A stretch of DNA of 34,719 bases, taken from a virus. The notes below the pieces were generated by a model. That model did no database searches and had not been told where the DNA came from. It saw nothing but the letters and a program-made list of their open reading frames with translations. Of this stretch, positions 8,992-26,893 are shown piece by piece (the first letter of the stretch is position 1; each line of letters starts with the position of its first letter). A program made the translations under genes and the position numbers. Where the stretch lies: positions 1 through 34,719 of IMG/VR virus record IMGVR_UViG_3300027861_000101. One strand, given 5' to 3'.

Positions 8992-9717
8992 ATGACAGAC
9001 AACATTTATTTGGACAAACAAAAAGAGGACAAAAAAGAAAAAGCGGAGTTGACCGCAATGGCAGGGAAAATCCAAGACCCTATCATATCAACAGAGCAGA
9101 TCGTGGCAGTTCTATCGAGAACACCTAAGCAGTATCTATACGACAGACCAGCAAAAGGCGGAGGAAAATGGACTTATGTGTCAGGTGGATATGTTAAGAA
9201 AACATTAAACAGAGTGTTCGGCTGGCGGTGGAGCTTTCAGATCGTAGACAAGTTCAGAGAAGACGGAGAGGTCATCGTGCAGGGTAGACTGATTATACTT
9301 AACGATGAGGGCGTACCATGTATCACAAAAGAGGACTTCGGGAAAAAAGAGATCATGTGCAAAAAGAACAGTACAACACCTCTCTCAATCGGCAACGATT
9401 ACAAGTCAGCGTCAACAGACGCATTGAAGCGATGTGCTTACCAGTTGGGAATAGCAAGCGATGTGTACGCCCCTAAAGAATTTAATGAACTCAAAGGCAA
9501 CCCTTCGGAAATGATAAACGAAAAGAAGAGCAACAGACAGAGACAATGCGAAGTTTGCGGAGAATGGTTTGATACCGACAAGCCATTCATGAAAGAGTGT
9601 AGAGACTGCTACAAGTTATCAAGAGAGGAAAAGAAATCAAAGGTCGATGAAATAAAAAAGGAAGCCGAAGCAGAGGAAAAAAAGCTCGGCGGTCAACCAT
9701 TTACAAATAAAAAATAA
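8992..9717 (+). CDS. Rad52-like single-strand annealing protein with zinc knuckle
   Basis: Residues about 32-165 match the Rad52/Rad22-type annealing fold: YVSGGYVKKTLNRVFGWRW, a beta sheet with VIVQGRLIIL, then DYKSASTDALKRCAYQLG, the usual closing helix of this family. Such proteins anneal complementary single strands and help phage recombination and replication. A C-terminal CEVC...CRDC pair (Cys186, 189, 203, 206) adds a zinc knuckle, followed by a highly charged tail. No partner exonuclease or SSB is recognisable nearby. The start is in ACATATG without SD. Confidence 0.75.
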   Translation: MTDNIYLDKQKEDKKEKAELTAMAGKIQDPIISTEQIVAVLSRTPKQYLYDRPAKGGGKWTYVSGGYVKKTLNRVFGWRWSFQIVDKFREDGEVIVQGRLIILNDEGVPCITKEDFGKKEIMCKKNSTTPLSIGNDYKSASTDALKRCAYQLGIASDVYAPKEFNELKGNPSEMINEKKSNRQRQCEVCGEWFDTDKPFMKECRDCYKLSREEKKSKVDEIKKEAEAEEKKLGGQPFTNKK

Positions 9718-9721
9718 TTGT

Positions 9722-9940
9722 ATGACAGACACAAAAAACATGGACAATCTGCAAGAGCAAAAGCGGATTGTTCAGGAGATCAAAAATTCAGGCTTCGCAT
9801 TTCTGGAAGCACAACAAAACATGAAAGGCGATTACACTGATGAGCAGTGGAAATCATCAAAAGAGAACAGCCAACTTATTATTAAATTACTGGGTCACGC
9901 TGATATAATCAGCCACAACCTACAGGAGATAATCAATTAG
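9722..9940 (+). CDS. Small helical protein, 72 aa
   Basis: A polar, mostly alpha-helical protein lying 4 bases after the annealing-protein gene and 1 base before the Gp157 gene. It has no cysteine or membrane segment. Tight packing in the early operon supports it as a real gene, perhaps an accessory of recombination. Family not recognised. Confidence 0.5.
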   Translation: MTDTKNMDNLQEQKRIVQEIKNSGFAFLEAQQNMKGDYTDEQWKSSKENSQLIIKLLGHADIISHNLQEIIN

Positions 9941-9941
9941 T

Positions 9942-10412
9942 ATGGAAATATATCAAATCAATCAAGAAGTTAGGAACGCATTGCAGGTCGAGGATCAAGA
10001 GGAACAGAAATATCAGCTCGATCAATTGAAATTGACTCTCGAAGAAAAGGTCGAGAATATGACAATGGCAATGCGAAACTTCGAAACAACTGCTGTGGCG
10101 ATAGATGATGAGATCAAACGGCTTCAGGAGTTAAAGAAATCAGCCCAAAACCGAGCTGTAACGATCAAGAAGTACATTCACAGTGGAATGGAGCAACAGG
10201 GCTTAAAACGGCTTGAATTCACCAATTTCCAGTTATTGATCGCAAAATGCCCTCCGTCAGTAGATATACAGAGCGAGACTGATGTACCTGCAGAATTTTG
10301 GGTCACGAAAAAAGTCCACAGCATTGACAAGAAAAAGCTCAAGGACGCACTAAAAGAGGGCGAGGTCGAGGGAGCAGAACTCAAACAGTCCACTTCATTA
10401 AGAATTAAATAA
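9942..10412 (+). CDS. Siphovirus Gp157 family protein
   Basis: The 156-residue protein has a long coiled coil (about residues 20-85, with LEEKVENMTMAMRNFETTA and EIKRLQELKKSAQNRA) followed by a small beta domain containing KRLEFTNFQLLIAKCPPSV. This is the typical layout of the siphovirus Gp157 family, which is common in phage early regions next to annealing proteins. Its biochemical role is unsettled; a part in recombination or replication is assumed from neighbourhood. Length agrees with the family. Confidence 0.8.
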   Translation: MEIYQINQEVRNALQVEDQEEQKYQLDQLKLTLEEKVENMTMAMRNFETTAVAIDDEIKRLQELKKSAQNRAVTIKKYIHSGMEQQGLKRLEFTNFQLLIAKCPPSVDIQSETDVPAEFWVTKKVHSIDKKKLKDALKEGEVEGAELKQSTSLRIK

Positions 10413-15951: not shown

Positions 15952-17022
15952 ATGCTAGACATAAAACCATACGAACAGAACGCTAAAAAACACCCAGACA
16001 AACAGCTCAAGCAAATTGCTAAGAGCATAAAAGAGTTTGGTTGGCAACAGCCGATTGTAGTTGATAAGAAGAATATAATCATTGTCGGTCATGGTCGTTG
16101 GTTTTCTTATCAGAAGTTTAAAGACGAAATGAGTTTGCCCGAGCCAGAGATTAAAGTTGCTGATTTAACAGAAAAACAATCGAAAGCGTACAGATTGGCA
16201 GACAACAAACTGAATGATAGCCCTTGGGATATGAAGTTAGTTATTGAGGAATTGAAATTGCTAGATAACGACATGATTGATTTAACTGGATTTAGTAAAG
16301 ATTTAATTTTGGACGATGACGAAAAAGATGACAAGGTGCCAGAGTCCGCAAAAGAGACCAATGCTAAACTCGGAGAGGTTTATCAGTTGGGCAAGCATAG
16401 AGTAATGTGTGGCGACAGCACGAAGATTGAAGAGGTTGAGAAGTTGCTAGACGGAAACAGAGCAGATATTCTATTCACTGATCCGCCCTATAATGTCGGT
16501 TACAAGTATAATCAATACGATGATAATAAAACGCTAGAGGAATATCAGTCTTTTTGCACAGATTGGTTTAATCTTGCCAAAACATTCACAGATTTTCAGA
16601 TAATAACTCCAGGTACGGTCAACTTGCACATGTGGGCGAGTATCGAGAAGTGGAAATCAATAGCCCCTTGGATCAAGAAAAACGCAATGAACAACGGAGA
16701 GATCAGTCATTTGAGACTATGGGAGCCTATTTTGTTTTATGGCAAGAGCAAGAAGCGAAGACCTGCTGATCTGTTCGAACACAATCTAAAGGGCGAGAAG
16801 ATAGAGCATACTTGCCCGAAGCCAGTTGATCTGGTCACTGATTGTTTAGTCAGTTTTGACGCTGATACAGTCTTAGATCTTTTTTTAGGTAGTGGAACTA
16901 CATTGATTGCATGTGAGAAGTCAGACAGAATTTGTTTCGGAATGGAACTAGACCCAAAGTATGTTGATGTTATAATTGAAAGGTGGGAAGATTACACAGG
17001 AAACAAAGCAGAAAAATTATAA
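15952..17022 (+). CDS. ParB-like domain fused to a DNA methyltransferase
   Basis: Residues about 1-95 are a ParB/Srx-type N-terminal domain (KQLKQIAKSIKEFGWQQP, IIVGHGRW at 44-50). From about residue 135 it is a DNA amino-methyltransferase: DPPY at 177-180 (catalytic motif IV) and FLGSGTT at 311-317 (SAM-binding motif I). With motif IV before motif I it belongs to the beta-type order and should methylate N6 of adenine or N4 of cytosine. No cognate restriction enzyme is nearby, so it is probably an orphan phage enzyme for protection or packaging/replication timing. It lies just upstream of the terminase genes, where this fusion is often found. Confidence 0.85.
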   Translation: MLDIKPYEQNAKKHPDKQLKQIAKSIKEFGWQQPIVVDKKNIIIVGHGRWFSYQKFKDEMSLPEPEIKVADLTEKQSKAYRLADNKLNDSPWDMKLVIEELKLLDNDMIDLTGFSKDLILDDDEKDDKVPESAKETNAKLGEVYQLGKHRVMCGDSTKIEEVEKLLDGNRADILFTDPPYNVGYKYNQYDDNKTLEEYQSFCTDWFNLAKTFTDFQIITPGTVNLHMWASIEKWKSIAPWIKKNAMNNGEISHLRLWEPILFYGKSKKRRPADLFEHNLKGEKIEHTCPKPVDLVTDCLVSFDADTVLDLFLGSGTTLIACEKSDRICFGMELDPKYVDVIIERWEDYTGNKAEKL

Positions 17023-21728: not shown

Positions 21729-22838
21729 ATGAACGAATTAAAAGAGAAGTTAGACGCTTTGGGTGTGAAATATGAAGCCAACGCAACCGAAGCAGAGTTA
21801 AAAGCTCTATTGGCAAAACAGGACGAAGCTGGAACAAAAACTGAAAAAGAAATGACAATGGACGAATTGAAAACAGTTATCGTTGAGGTAGTTAAAGAGA
21901 ATTTACCAGAAGCTAAAGAGGAAGTGAAATTGAATAAAACAGAAGCGGAAGTGAAAATGGAAGGACTCGAAGTTGCAAAGAAATTTATTCAAGATGTTGT
22001 AGAAGGAAAAGCTGTTTCGACAGACAATGCTTCGTTTGGGTACACTGTACCAACTGAATTGGCAAACGCTATTCAGGAGAAAAAGGATAAGATTTCAAAG
22101 ATGAGAGGAATCGCTTTCGTGTTTCAAATGGCAGGTAAATTCCAACTTCCACAGGAAGGTACTGGAGTTACTTCATACTGGGTTGACGAAAATGTTGAGG
22201 TTACTGAAAGTGCCCCAACTGTAGGAAAAACTGATCTTGATGATTACTACCTAGCTGGTCGTGTCTTAGCCCCAAAGAAACTATTGAGTACATCTGCGTA
22301 CAATGTAGTTGAATTCCTTTCAAGATTGATTTCACGATCAATGGTAAATAAAGAGGAATCAGCATTCGTAGCAGGAGACGGATCAAGCAAGCCAACAGGA
22401 TTGAGAAGTGCGTCAGTTAGTTCAGAAGCACAGGAAGGAGCAAACCTTGCTTACGATGATATTGTGAATCTATACTACGGTCTAGCAGAACAGTACCGAA
22501 GTCAAGCTGTATTTTTGACATCAGCAGTCGGAATGAAAGCACTTAGAAAAATTAAAGATGATAACGGTGTGCCAATCTTCGACCCTTCTCGACAGGAATT
22601 ATTCGGACGACCAGTTCTTGAAAGTTCAGATATCCCAAGCACTTTAGGAACTACTGCAAACGAAACAGAACTTTGGTTCTTCGACCCTAGTTACTACTGG
22701 ATTAAAGACGGTGAAACTATGCAAATGGAAACTGACAAGGTCATTAGTAAATTGCAAGTTGAGATCGTTATTTCACAGGCAGTCGATGGTGTATTCACAC
22801 TAGCGGACGCAGGCTACAAACTTACAAGCGTAAAATAG
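21729..22838 (+). CDS. Major capsid protein (HK97 fold)
   Basis: Residues about 1-95 are a helical, charged delta domain that acts as built-in scaffold and should be removed by the protease encoded upstream. From residue 100 the HK97 fold is clear: FGYTVPTELANAI, GTGVTSYWVDENVEVTES, a long spine-helix region with EESAFVAGDGSSKPTGL, and the C-terminal IFDPSRQELFGRPVLES with the following strands. Length (369 aa) matches the family. It is followed by a stem-loop that may stabilise or partly terminate the abundant mRNA. Confidence 0.93.
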   Translation: MNELKEKLDALGVKYEANATEAELKALLAKQDEAGTKTEKEMTMDELKTVIVEVVKENLPEAKEEVKLNKTEAEVKMEGLEVAKKFIQDVVEGKAVSTDNASFGYTVPTELANAIQEKKDKISKMRGIAFVFQMAGKFQLPQEGTGVTSYWVDENVEVTESAPTVGKTDLDDYYLAGRVLAPKKLLSTSAYNVVEFLSRLISRSMVNKEESAFVAGDGSSKPTGLRSASVSSEAQEGANLAYDDIVNLYYGLAEQYRSQAVFLTSAVGMKALRKIKDDNGVPIFDPSRQELFGRPVLESSDIPSTLGTTANETELWFFDPSYYWIKDGETMQMETDKVISKLQVEIVISQAVDGVFTLADAGYKLTSVK

Positions 22839-22843
22839 TTGGC

Positions 22844-22874
22844 TATCCTTGCCCCTCTCGTGGGGGGTGGGATA
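22844..22874 (+). terminator. Stem-loop after the major capsid gene
   Basis: TATCCT pairs with GGGATA (one G-U), and after a small internal loop CCCC pairs with GGGG, capped by CTCGT. There is no T-tract, so it is more likely an mRNA-stabilising or partial attenuating hairpin that lowers expression of the following cassette. Confidence 0.55.
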
Positions 22875-22897: not shown

Positions 22898-23173
22898 ATG
22901 TCAGACAAAGTCTTAGTAAAATTTTTAAAAGGTTGGGGAAACTTCATTAAAGATGACTTGACCAAGCTCGACAGAGAGACAGTCGAAATGTTATTGAAAA
23001 ATAGTATTGTGATTATTTTCGGCGAGGAGGAATTTGACATTACAGACGAAGAGAAAGAATCATTGCCAAATGTAGAACACAAACCAGACTTGTTCATTTG
23101 CCCCATTTGTGGCAAGGAATACAAGACAGAGCGAGGACTTCTAAACCATAAAAAGAAGGAACACAACCTTTAA
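22898..23173 (+). CDS. C2H2 zinc-finger protein
   Basis: The N-terminal 60 residues are helical and strand-like (KVLVKFLKGWGNFIKDD, IVIIFGEEEFDITDEE). The C-terminal 25 hold CPICGKEYKTERGLLNH and KKKEH, a canonical C2H2 finger. The finger could bind DNA, or a protein partner. It opens the cassette between capsid and connector genes and may be a head-completion protein that gained a finger; function unproven. Confidence 0.65.
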   Translation: MSDKVLVKFLKGWGNFIKDDLTKLDRETVEMLLKNSIVIIFGEEEFDITDEEKESLPNVEHKPDLFICPICGKEYKTERGLLNHKKKEHNL

Positions 23174-23178
23174 TAATT

Positions 23179-24111
23179 ATGACTAAAAAAAGGATCATTT
23201 ACATAGGGAATTTCAGCGTACCTTTTTCTACTGAGAATGATATCATGAAGAGTTTTGAAGGTTTGGGTTGGGAAGTCTACGCAATACAGGAAAACAAGAT
23301 GACACCAGAGACAATCAAGGAAATTAAACAGATTCAGGGCGATTTCGATTTCATACTTTACACAAGGACATGGGCAGATTGGGGCAAGATATGGGCAGAT
23401 ATCATAAAGAACGCAGTTATCCCGACAGTCAGCGTACATTTAGACCTCTATTTAGGATTAAGCAGGGGCGACAACTTGAAATCTGATACATTCTTTTGGA
23501 GCGATTATGTTTTTTCAGCAGACGGAGGAGAGGAGCATGGCAAGCAATTTAAAAAATTAGGATTCAATCACCACTTTTTACCGCCTGCAATACTTGAAGA
23601 CAGCTGTTATTTGGGAGAAAAGAAAAAGGAGTTCAGTCACGATGTAATATTTGTCGGAAGTTTCAACTACCACGCAGAATGGAAGCACAGAAGACTTTTA
23701 ATCAAATGGTTGAAAAACACATACCAAGACAGGTTCAAACTATACCCAAACGAGCAGACACCGATTGTCAGAGGGAAAGATTTAAACGATCTTTACAACT
23801 CGGCAAAGGTAGTAGTCGGAGACAGCACATACTCGCCAAACTATTGGAGCGACAGAATACCAGAGACATTGGGCAGGGGCGGTTTCTTACTCCACCCATT
23901 TGTTGACGAGTTAGACAAGCAGTTCGAGTATTACAAAGACTTGATTCCATATAAGCATGGCGATTTCACCAACCTAAAACAGATTATTGATTATTATATT
24001 AAGCACGACAAGGAGCGAGACGAGATCAGACTGCAAGGAATGGCAAGCGTGAAGAGCCACAGCACATACAGGCACAGAGCCGAATATATTATTAACTTTT
24101 TAGGGCTATGA
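23179..24111 (+). CDS. CgeB-like glycosyltransferase (GT-B)
   Basis: The 310-residue protein has an N-terminal Rossmann start (KRIIYIGNFSVPFS), a middle linker (HDVIFVGSFN) and a C-terminal nucleotide-sugar domain. The latter carries DLNDLYNSAKVVVGDS and SDRIPETLGRGGFLLHPFVD, the pattern of CgeB-like GT-B transferases. The conserved Glu in the latter motif would bind the ribose of the donor. It should add a sugar to a protein or glycan. Coupled by ATGA to the next gene. Confidence 0.8.
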   Translation: MTKKRIIYIGNFSVPFSTENDIMKSFEGLGWEVYAIQENKMTPETIKEIKQIQGDFDFILYTRTWADWGKIWADIIKNAVIPTVSVHLDLYLGLSRGDNLKSDTFFWSDYVFSADGGEEHGKQFKKLGFNHHFLPPAILEDSCYLGEKKKEFSHDVIFVGSFNYHAEWKHRRLLIKWLKNTYQDRFKLYPNEQTPIVRGKDLNDLYNSAKVVVGDSTYSPNYWSDRIPETLGRGGFLLHPFVDELDKQFEYYKDLIPYKHGDFTNLKQIIDYYIKHDKERDEIRLQGMASVKSHSTYRHRAEYIINFLGL

Positions 24112-24848
24112 GATTGACAATTTGTGCGATCACTTACAATGAAAAAGAACATTTGGAGCATTGGCACAAACAGCACAAAGATTTAGCAGATGAAATTTAC
24201 ATAGTAGATACAGGCAGTTATGACGGAACTGTCGAGGAAGCGAAACGGATCGGATTGCGATGTGAGACAATGAAATGGACGCATGACTTTGCACACGCAA
24301 AGAATACAGCGATCAGATTTGCAACAGGCGACTGGGTATTGTTACTAAGCCCAGACTTCTGGATTCACGAGAGCAATTTTAAAACGATTCGAGAAGTTAT
24401 CCACAGCAAGGAAATAGTCGGATTCAGGACACCATTGTTTCATCATGGCAAAGATTGGCTGAATGAAAGCTATCCAGAGAAGGTCGAGATAAAAAGAGAG
24501 AATTGGGAAACAGATACTCATTTGGTCTTATTCAAGAACGATCCAAAAATATATTTTCAGCACAGAGTACACGAGAACATAAACGAAAGCATAGACGAGA
24601 ACTACGGAGAGGATCGTATAGGATTCATTCCTGTTGTCAGACACCATGACAACACTACGGATCAGATACATAACTTTGATAAATTAAAATATTACTGGGC
24701 TTTGGAAAGCTACGGAGCAATCGAAAGAAAGTTCTGGGAGCATACCGAAGTTTTAAGGAAACAAGCATATGACACAGAAATTAGACAATTATCAGAGCAG
24801 ATACGAGATACACCAAGAGCGAAAAAAAAAGCAGTTGACAGAGAATGA
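24108..24848 (+). CDS. GT2-family glycosyltransferase with altered DxD
   Basis: The 246-residue GT-A protein opens MRLTICAITYNEKEHLEHW, with VDTGSYDGT (34-41) and ATGDWVLLLSPDFWI (72-86). These are the family-2 glycosyltransferase hallmarks for donor binding. The metal-binding DxD, normally D-A/S-D/E, is S81-P82-D83 here, so the first Asp is lost and metal use may differ or activity may be reduced. It overlaps its neighbours on both sides (4 and 80 bases). Confidence 0.82.
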   Translation: MRLTICAITYNEKEHLEHWHKQHKDLADEIYIVDTGSYDGTVEEAKRIGLRCETMKWTHDFAHAKNTAIRFATGDWVLLLSPDFWIHESNFKTIREVIHSKEIVGFRTPLFHHGKDWLNESYPEKVEIKRENWETDTHLVLFKNDPKIYFQHRVHENINESIDENYGEDRIGFIPVVRHHDNTTDQIHNFDKLKYYWALESYGAIERKFWEHTEVLRKQAYDTEIRQLSEQIRDTPRAKKKAVDRE

Positions 24849-25320
24849 AGAGCCTTGCGAATTAGGTTTGAAGCCAAATTTTTGGGAAGTAATAAACAAC
24901 AGAAGAAGTCATAGAATATTCAGAGGTGAAAGCATAAACAAGATAACACTTGAAATGATACTAGCAAAGGGAGAATTAGCCCCAAGTTCTTGCAACAGAA
25001 ACGCTGTATTTGTTCTCACTGCCAACGCAAGCAAGGTCGGTGATTTGTTGGTCGGCGGTAAAGGTTGGGCTAAAAACGCAGATAAAATATTACTGTACTT
25101 TGCAGATATGTCAGCATACAAGAGTCCGAACGAGGTTATGTTCATGCCGTACTTAGACGCAGGCGTAAAGGTCATGCAAACAAGTCTAGTATGCGAGAGT
25201 TTGGGAGTTCGGAATTGTATCGTCAACCCGAACATCAGAGCAGAAGATAAATTGAAATTTAATAAATTATTTAACCAAGACGGATACAAATTTTGTGTAG
25301 CCTTGGTCATAGGTTTATGA
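24769..25320 (+). CDS. Nitroreductase-fold protein
   Basis: NRRSHRIFRGESINKITLEM, LAPSSCNRNAVFVL (residues about 69-83), DAGVKVMQTSLVCESLGVRN (130-149) form the FMN-dependent nitroreductase pattern: the RRS phosphate-binding start, the APS loop and the D.G....L....LG helix. At 183 residues it is close to the minimal family size. The first 30 residues overlap the previous gene by 80 bases; an internal TTG at 24835 would cut the overlap to 14 bases. In a sugar-transfer cassette it might reduce or modify a sugar precursor, which is inference. Confidence 0.7.
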   Translation: MTQKLDNYQSRYEIHQERKKKQLTENEEPCELGLKPNFWEVINNRRSHRIFRGESINKITLEMILAKGELAPSSCNRNAVFVLTANASKVGDLLVGGKGWAKNADKILLYFADMSAYKSPNEVMFMPYLDAGVKVMQTSLVCESLGVRNCIVNPNIRAEDKLKFNKLFNQDGYKFCVALVIGL

Positions 25321-26333
25321 AAATTGCATTTATAGCGAGAGCGGACAACACAGGTCTCGGAGTTGAGAGCTGGGAGTTTGCTAGACACTTTCCGAAAGCA
25401 AAGGCTATTATTGTTGATTTATCAGCGGACAACGAACACAAAGACCTTTATAAATTACATTTGGATCGATTCAATAAGCATGTGGTAGCAATACCAGAGA
25501 CGCTTAAAAATGCGATTGTGAGAGAGCTTAAAGGATATACCATGCTTTTATCATTTGAGACCTTTTATGACGCTAGAATCGTTGAAATAGCCCGAGAAAT
25601 GGGGATCAAAACTGTATTGAGAGTCAACTATGAATGGCTAGAGGTAGAAAACTACATAAACAAGCACAAGCCAGACATGTTTATCGCCCCTAGCTTATGG
25701 GAATTTGAGAGTTATCCACACCCAGCGAAGTATATCCCCTATCCTATCCACAGGCAGGTTCTACCATTCGATCTGAAAACCAAAGCGAAGAAGTTTATCC
25801 ACATAGCAGGAAACATGAAAGCAGGTTACGATAGAAATGGAACAAAAGCATTCTTGGAAGCAATCCCACTAATCAAGAACAAGAACATTGAGATCATCAT
25901 AAAAAGCCAAGTACCAATCGAGTGCAATGATAAGCGTGTCAGGGTAGATGTTACCAACCACGATAATTATTTCGACATTTGGGAAAAGGCAGATGTTTAT
26001 GTCAGCCCTAGACGATACGCAGGTCAGAGCTTACCGCTCAACGAAGCAATGAGTTTGGGAATGGCAATAATGATGACGGACATGAAACCACAAAATCAGT
26101 TCTTGCCAAAGGAATTGTTGATACAGCCAAGAGAGATCAATACAATAGAAATAAAAGGCAATACAATCGAATACGCAGAGATCGAGCCGAAAGAGATCGC
26201 CAAGAAGATTGACGAGATCGCAGGCAAAGACATCAAAAAGTATTCAATCGCCAGCGATGAGATCGCACACAATTGGAGCTGGGACAAATTAAAAGAAAAG
26301 TACGATAATTTATTTAAAAATATATGTCAGTAA
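25317..26333 (+). CDS. GT4-like glycosyltransferase
   Basis: ATG 25317 overlaps the previous stop (ATGA); an earlier in-frame start is unlikely. The 338-residue protein has a GT-B layout: KIAFIARADNTGLGVES, the linker KKFIHIAGNMKAGYDRNGT and the donor site VYVSPRRYAGQSLPLNEAMS (about 227-246) with Glu243 in the EX7E-like position. It is a retaining-type nucleotide-sugar transferase by family. With its two companions it could build a short glycan on a virion protein or host molecule. Confidence 0.8.
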   Translation: MKIAFIARADNTGLGVESWEFARHFPKAKAIIVDLSADNEHKDLYKLHLDRFNKHVVAIPETLKNAIVRELKGYTMLLSFETFYDARIVEIAREMGIKTVLRVNYEWLEVENYINKHKPDMFIAPSLWEFESYPHPAKYIPYPIHRQVLPFDLKTKAKKFIHIAGNMKAGYDRNGTKAFLEAIPLIKNKNIEIIIKSQVPIECNDKRVRVDVTNHDNYFDIWEKADVYVSPRRYAGQSLPLNEAMSLGMAIMMTDMKPQNQFLPKELLIQPREINTIEIKGNTIEYAEIEPKEIAKKIDEIAGKDIKKYSIASDEIAHNWSWDKLKEKYDNLFKNICQ

Positions 26334-26893
26334 TAGCAAACGCACTCACAACAGTCGTGAAAGTCAAACTACATTTAGGAATAAGTGTAGCGACTTACGA
26401 TTCATTATTCGAACAATTGATTGACGAAGCGACTTTATTTATAGAGACCTATTGCAACAGAGTAATATCAAAGACAACTCACACAGATGTTTTGTTTGAC
26501 GGAGACGATTATGATTCGACCTTGTACATCAAGAACTTTCCAATCACAGAGATTGACACAATCGAATACAATAATGGAACTTTTGCAACTCCAGACTGGA
26601 CAGCATACACAACCGATCAATACGAATACAACCTAGCAGAGGGTATCATTTATTTCGATGTTGATTTGCCAAGCGGTAAACAGAATGTTCGAATCACTTA
26701 CACAGGCGGATTCACAACAGTACCGCAGGATATTGAGATGGCTTGCAATAAATTAGTCGCTAGATATTACAATAAAAGAAAAAGTGAGGGGGTAAGTGCC
26801 GAGACCGCAGGAATTACTAATTTAACTTGGGACGATGTTTTGACTAAAGAAATAACAAGTGTCTTGAATAGATACAAAAATCATACTATATGA
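26324..26893 (+). CDS. Head-tail connector (gp6-like)
   Basis: A 189-residue protein with an N-terminal helical bundle (ANALTTVVKVKLHLGISVAT, FEQLIDEATLFIETYCNR). An inserted beta domain with PITEIDTIEYNNGTF and GIIYFDVDLPSGKQNVRITY follows, then a C-terminal helix with CNKLVARYYNKRKSEG. This is the HK97 gp6/SPP1 gp15-type adaptor that forms a ring under the portal. It returns the gene order to the virion programme after the sugar cassette and overlaps it by 10 bases. Confidence 0.83.
   Translation: MSVIANALTTVVKVKLHLGISVATYDSLFEQLIDEATLFIETYCNRVISKTTHTDVLFDGDDYDSTLYIKNFPITEIDTIEYNNGTFATPDWTAYTTDQYEYNLAEGIIYFDVDLPSGKQNVRITYTGGFTTVPQDIEMACNKLVARYYNKRKSEGVSAETAGITNLTWDDVLTKEITSVLNRYKNHTI

Follow-up and report, generated by a model that had tools for sequence, protein, structure and literature searches.

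Among phages, glycosylation of the virion has been shown in a small number, chiefly in mycobacteriophages. The head operon of mycobacteriophage Corndog encodes a methyltransferase and three glycosyltransferases (GTs) (PMC4351075), and glycans on mycobacteriophage capsids and tail tubes, the Corndog capsid included, were described by Freeman et al. (2023), as relayed in PMC12363180 and PMC12619734. With this precedent, virion glycosylation is already a known kind of modification. In this study, we analyzed a 34.7-kb phage record (34,719 nt; IMG/VR IMGVR_UViG_3300027861_000101; hereafter the window, meaning this whole stretch of DNA), which carries an HK97-type morphogenesis operon with terminase, portal, S78 protease, major capsid protein (MCP), connector and neck genes, tail protein, and tape measure. 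The gene just preceding the terminase small subunit (15952-17022; PF01555, phrog_498) codes for a DNA methyltransferase that carries a ParB-like domain at its N-terminus. Five same-strand genes occupy the slot between MCP and connector: a small zinc-finger gene, a CgeB-like GT, a GT2, a nitroreductase-fold gene, and a GT4. The slot and its borders read as follows.

21729..22838, + strand, HK97-type MCP, upstream border of the slot (PF05065 3e-47; phrog_10 7e-47)
22844..22874, + strand, hairpin just 3' of the MCP stop codon, with no T-run
22898..23173, + strand, small post-MCP gene with a C2H2 zinc finger (PF13894 2.3e-5)
23179..24111, + strand, CgeB-like GT-B glycosyltransferase (PF13524 2.7e-18; phrog_28745 1e-40)
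24108..24848, + strand, GT2 glycosyltransferase (PF00535 1.2e-13)
24769..25320, + strand, FMN-nitroreductase-fold oxidoreductase (PF00881 4.7e-11)
25317..26333, + strand, GT4 glycosyltransferase, ATG start at 25317 (PF13692 4.8e-9; phrog_2170 1e-12)
26324..26893, + strand, head-tail connector, downstream border of the slot (PF05135 5.6e-11; phrog_442 2e-31)

The Pfam and PHROG matches bear out the gene content that a preliminary description, made from the letters alone, had assigned to this gap. That description also had the genes mostly overlapping by ATGA, which holds at two cassette junctions only, CgeB/GT2 and nitroreductase/GT4; a 5-base gap separates the zinc-finger and CgeB-like genes, GT2 and nitroreductase overlap by about 80 bases, and GT4 and connector by 10 bases. 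The GT4 start, formerly placed at 25293, is moved to the ATG at 25317. What we observe in this slot, namely which genes it holds, their fixed place, the swapping of one GT set for another there, the fusion of the small gene's domain to GTs, and the strict pairing of finger and CgeB cassette, leads us to propose that the five genes probably form a late-expressed virion-glycosylation cassette, housed in a slot reserved for capsid-associated functions.

The strong hairpin behind the MCP gene is conserved in structure across the lineage, but not in sequence. Over 36 phages the z score at this site has a median of -5.0, with 86% below -2, whereas the portal, protease, connector, and TTP genes are followed by values near 0; the hairpin may have a role in setting capsid-to-downstream expression.

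Turning to the enzymes, the nearest PDB matches of the GT2 in a sequence search are the protein GTs GmaR (9e-14) and SunS (4e-8). Both act on polypeptides, their acceptors being a flagellin and a bacteriocin, so this likeness is consistent with a polypeptide acceptor. The DXD-type motif of the GT2 reads xPD, the first Asp being lost in all five members of the alignment; thus, one of the GTs may be weak or may have changed its role. Neither the CgeB-like GT nor the GT4 found a PDB match by sequence. The nitroreductase scores 43.6 bits against PF00881 (cut-off 23.5), its AF2 model matches FMN nitroreductases (PDB 8cqt, E 4e-8), and an N-terminal YQxRYxxHQxxKK motif is conserved; we propose that it is a glycan-tailoring enzyme. 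Our literature search gave no clear precedent for a nitroreductase in polysaccharide clusters, and tblastn against INPHARED returned no match for the nitroreductase, the GT4, or a 494-aa GT fusion from the related phages described below. Within the window we recognized no gene for sugar-donor synthesis, and the phage would therefore depend on its host for donors.

To see what fills this slot elsewhere, we collected 53 viral loci and 6 MAG-contig loci encoding relatives of the window MCP (59 in total), excluded three viral loci with only 24-25% identity from the slot survey, and removed near-copies by hand. This left 40 nonredundant phages, the window included, and the counts that follow depend on that manual reduction and on a simple ORF caller applied to uncultured collections in which many contigs are fragments. 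In 21 of the 40 the slot holds a single small gene only, with two irregular cases: a second short ORF precedes the small gene in L048, and a neck gene precedes the connector in L040. Ten carry a window-type cassette (type A), composed of zinc-finger gene, CgeB-GT, a variable middle, and GT4, and they include phages whose MCPs fall to about 50% identity. The middle varies as follows.

GT2 and nitroreductase: window, L007, L008, L009
GT2 alone: L004
FkbM methyltransferase: L005, L006, L035
another class I methyltransferase: L027
two methyltransferases: L011

All ten lie between MCP and connector, the contig of L005 ending before the connector. The survey of relatives that the preliminary description had called for thus found the cassette neither absent nor elsewhere, ten of ten being in the slot, with nine more phages carrying other GTs there. 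In two viral contigs, whose MCPs share about 55% identity with that of the window, the window-type cassette sits at the same position, with CgeB-GT and GT4 proteins 53-61% identical to the window's, that is, conserved like the MCP itself; for the CgeB-GT, identity to L006 and L008 is 59-61%. Taken over the other contigs, the cassette genes keep order and place at about 50-61% identity, with the zinc-finger gene lower (33-42%). The same genes in the same order and place argue that the cassette is not a chance assembly.

The nine others have GT cassettes that are nonhomologous to the window's yet occupy the same slot. Eight phages (type B; an additional one, L111, came from a later scan) encode a 488-494-aa protein with two GT2 domains, often accompanied by extra GT2, methyltransferase, or fibre-like genes, and one phage (type C, L030) an 849-aa protein with GT2, GT4, and CgeB-type domains; in both types a small domain typical of the post-MCP gene is fused to the GT. 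The slot after the capsid gene is therefore a lineage-wide hot spot. Trees of the CgeB-GT and GT4 from the ten type-A phages largely match the MCP tree, with the exception of L011, which groups elsewhere with weak support and hints at cassette exchange between lineages. Fibre- or decoration-like genes are also found between MCP and connector (L045 11246-14245, L067 10666-13313, L011 5242-7717; e.g., 655, 592, and 278 aa), an indication that the slot serves the capsid exterior in general.

The small post-MCP protein itself has a composite build. In the window it consists of an N-terminal bbab domain (about residues 3-41), a disordered linker, and a C-terminal C2H2 finger (about residues 61-90). 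AlphaFold2, run on a 35-row alignment, returns the bbab domain and the finger as ordered parts, both with pLDDT about 90, joined by the disordered linker, and pLDDT exceeds 90 across most of the finger. The finger is an intact C-x2-C-x12-H-x4-H (CPIC...H-x4-H), two Cys and two His at standard spacing; its PF13894 score, 25.2 bits, falls just below the cut-off of 27, which the relative in L004 passes. Fold searches with the small protein matched uncharacterized small phage proteins only, with poor rmsd in most cases because two ordered parts are flexibly linked. No match to PF23843 (DUF7210) exceeded the cut-off, the window gene giving none and that of L048 14.8 bits against 27. A pattern VxFxKxxxPYxxGDxAG...A..LI, or a variant of it, is present after the MCP in every surveyed phage, as a short protein except in L030 and L031, where its sole occurrence is at the start of a GT. 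When a profile built from the stand-alone small proteins was run on 826 proteins longer than 150 aa from the surveyed loci, it matched 14. All of these, truncated and repeat copies included, come from the slot and carry the domain N-terminally, and the full-length forms are GTs (identified as such by Pfam for L030, L031, and L044). Relatives of the domain also lie directly 3' of the major tail protein in Gordonia phage Mahdia (8190-8435) and Nocardia phage NS-I (8177-8422). The domain may thus belong to virion surface proteins in general, and the target of glycosylation could be the tail. As to the capsid, we saw no C-terminal MCP extension that could serve as an acceptor tail in the three cassette phages aligned.

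The finger, in turn, follows the cassette. A C-terminal C2H2 finger is found on the small protein in all ten type-A phages and in none of the 30 others. The distribution of cassette A on the MCP tree requires five changes, of which well-supported branches force at least four, and the finger tracks each. The small post-MCP protein of L032 (5300-5611) has a CCHC zinc-knuckle-like motif at its end in place of the C2H2 finger, and the slot there has no GT. Such pairing could have a simpler cause, which concerns the proposed tether and not the virion target: the zinc-finger protein would be a nucleic-acid-binding or regulatory head gene, as C2H2 fingers usually bind nucleic acid, and its association with the CgeB-GT mere hitch-hiking, since adjacent genes travel together. 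The independent pairs on the MCP tree, in which finger and cassette agree in four of four, are too few for significance, and so few contrasts leave room for this explanation. Loci outside the lineage bear on it. A single-sequence scan of viral contigs with the CgeB-GT found nothing, alignment queries being required, and a scan with a GT4 alignment yielded three informative loci (L099, L100, and L101) in which no MCP of the window lineage was recognized. In L099 and L100 the gene immediately 5' of the CgeB-GT ends in a C2H2 finger, and in L099 this gene is a fusion, its first 218 residues matching the second of the two GT2 domains in type-B proteins (E 2e-27). Both the finger and the bbab domain are thus found joined to a GT in a single polypeptide. 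This L099 polypeptide and the bbab-GT fusions of types B and C speak against hitch-hiking, which we consider unlikely, if still a serious competitor. We put forward the small protein as a candidate tether or adaptor. In more distant CgeB-GT loci (31-40% identical) no finger adjoins a GT.

Some of these outlying loci have features of their own. L101 (3165-6999) lacks the finger and shows a run of CgeB-GT, sulfotransferase (PF13469), and GT4 genes 3' of a gene that, with no Pfam match, looks like a capsid protein; a sulfated virion glycan is possible there. In L100 (4806-9798) a GT-D-like gene, an acetyltransferase, and a predicted aminotransferase adjoin the CgeB-GT/GT4 cassette, as if this phage made an amino-sugar donor. 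In L013 a Fic-domain gene (9588-10217) stands between FkbM methyltransferase and GT4, the CgeB cassette lying upstream of the portal gene.

Where the sugars would be placed is a separate question. Phage GTs that alter host surface sugars are well known, as in the Gtr systems, and bacterial polysaccharide loci, too, contain GT4 and CgeB GTs; the cassette might accordingly modify the host surface for receptor masking or superinfection exclusion, its place in a late operon being incidental. Yet it encodes no flippase and no membrane GT of the Gtr type, none of its proteins having a membrane segment (maximum KD19 1.2); receptor masking would be ill-timed at late expression; and the place beside the MCP is fixed in all ten carriers of the lineage, with other GTs as replacements there. 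The fusion of both the bbab domain and the finger to GTs further favors a virion target, and a host-surface role appears distinctly improbable to us. The earlier suggestion of a glycan on capsid or tail proteins gains support from these fusions and from the lack of membrane proteins. Glycosylation of hypermodified phage DNA against restriction, a use of phage GTs known from T4-type phages and others (examples are cited in PMC12619734), is far less probable still: we recognized no pyrimidine hydroxymethylase or related base-modifying gene in the window, many of whose early genes are unassigned, and neither the head-operon location nor the fusions fit it. Seroconversion and DNA hypermodification were both judged weak candidates, since membrane, flippase, and base-modification genes were not recognized.

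Virion glycosylation thus remains the preferred reading, and a mechanism can be outlined for it. The bbab domain of the small protein would bind the capsid, or be itself a minor head component, while its zinc finger would recruit the separately encoded GTs; where a phage has the bbab domain fused directly to a GT, the fusion would take the place of the finger. The three GTs might then assemble a short glycan stepwise on a virion protein (capsid, small head protein, or tail) from sugar donors presumably supplied by the host. The nitroreductase-fold enzyme would tailor the sugar or its donor, at a position held by FkbM or class I methyltransferases in other members, and the finished glycan probably changes adsorption or shields the particle.

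As to hosts, MCP relatives are found in MAG contigs named Paceibacterota, Falkowbacteria, and Moraniibacteriota; the last, a 146-kb contig (L040), also bears ClpB, LigA, and GlyA genes, and other bacterial genes are present on the contigs of Paceibacterota and Falkowbacteria (L036 and L037 complete the Patescibacteria-linked loci). These bacterial chromosomal genes make some members of the lineage look like proviruses of Patescibacteria, a group of ultrasmall bacteria. Other relatives come from Bacteroidota and Desulfobacteraceae bins, and the slot is free of GT cassettes in all three relatives linked to Patescibacteria. Overall, we tentatively suggest, at somewhat less than even confidence, a capsid-docked system in which a head domain brings GTs to the assembling virion, by fusion or through a C2H2 adaptor, the docking part being kept and whole glycan programs swapped in one slot, with ultrasmall Patescibacteria as at least some of the hosts. 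In the uncultured phage lineage described here, different GT sets have come to fill one capsid-proximal slot again and again. How phage GTs are targeted to the phage's own particle could be answered, in a testable way, by a head-domain or zinc-finger tether, and the GT-fused head domain provides a sequence marker for more such systems.

Among described systems, Corndog and its cluster O relatives come closest, with a run of three GTs and a tailoring O-methyltransferase (gp35-gp38) in the head operon near the capsid genes. Their cassette, unlike that of the window, sits between portal and protease and not 3' of the MCP; it has no annotated zinc finger, head-domain match, or nitroreductase, and neither HMM nor BLASTP gives gp33-36 of Catdawg, a cluster O phage, a significant match to the window proteins. 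Che8 gp110 and the Myrna GTs are similar by description, being phage-encoded GTs reported to modify virion proteins. The nearest isolate relatives of the CgeB-GT, in Streptomyces phages (e.g., Dryad gp34-36), are likewise followed by a methyltransferase, but they are only about 30% identical and lie 3' of tail and lysis genes, not adjacent to the capsid gene. GmaR and SunS share domain similarity with the window GT2, in which the canonical DXD is altered. For the small protein, a similar small fold is seen in DUF7210-like phage proteins in BFVD, where one match is annotated DUF7210, and a sequence relative lies directly after the MCP in Marinobacter phage AS1; we found no reported zinc-finger or GT link for DUF7210-like proteins and, in a limited literature search, no description of the tether architecture. 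Set beside these systems, the tethering architecture, the nitroreductase, and the lineage itself look new.
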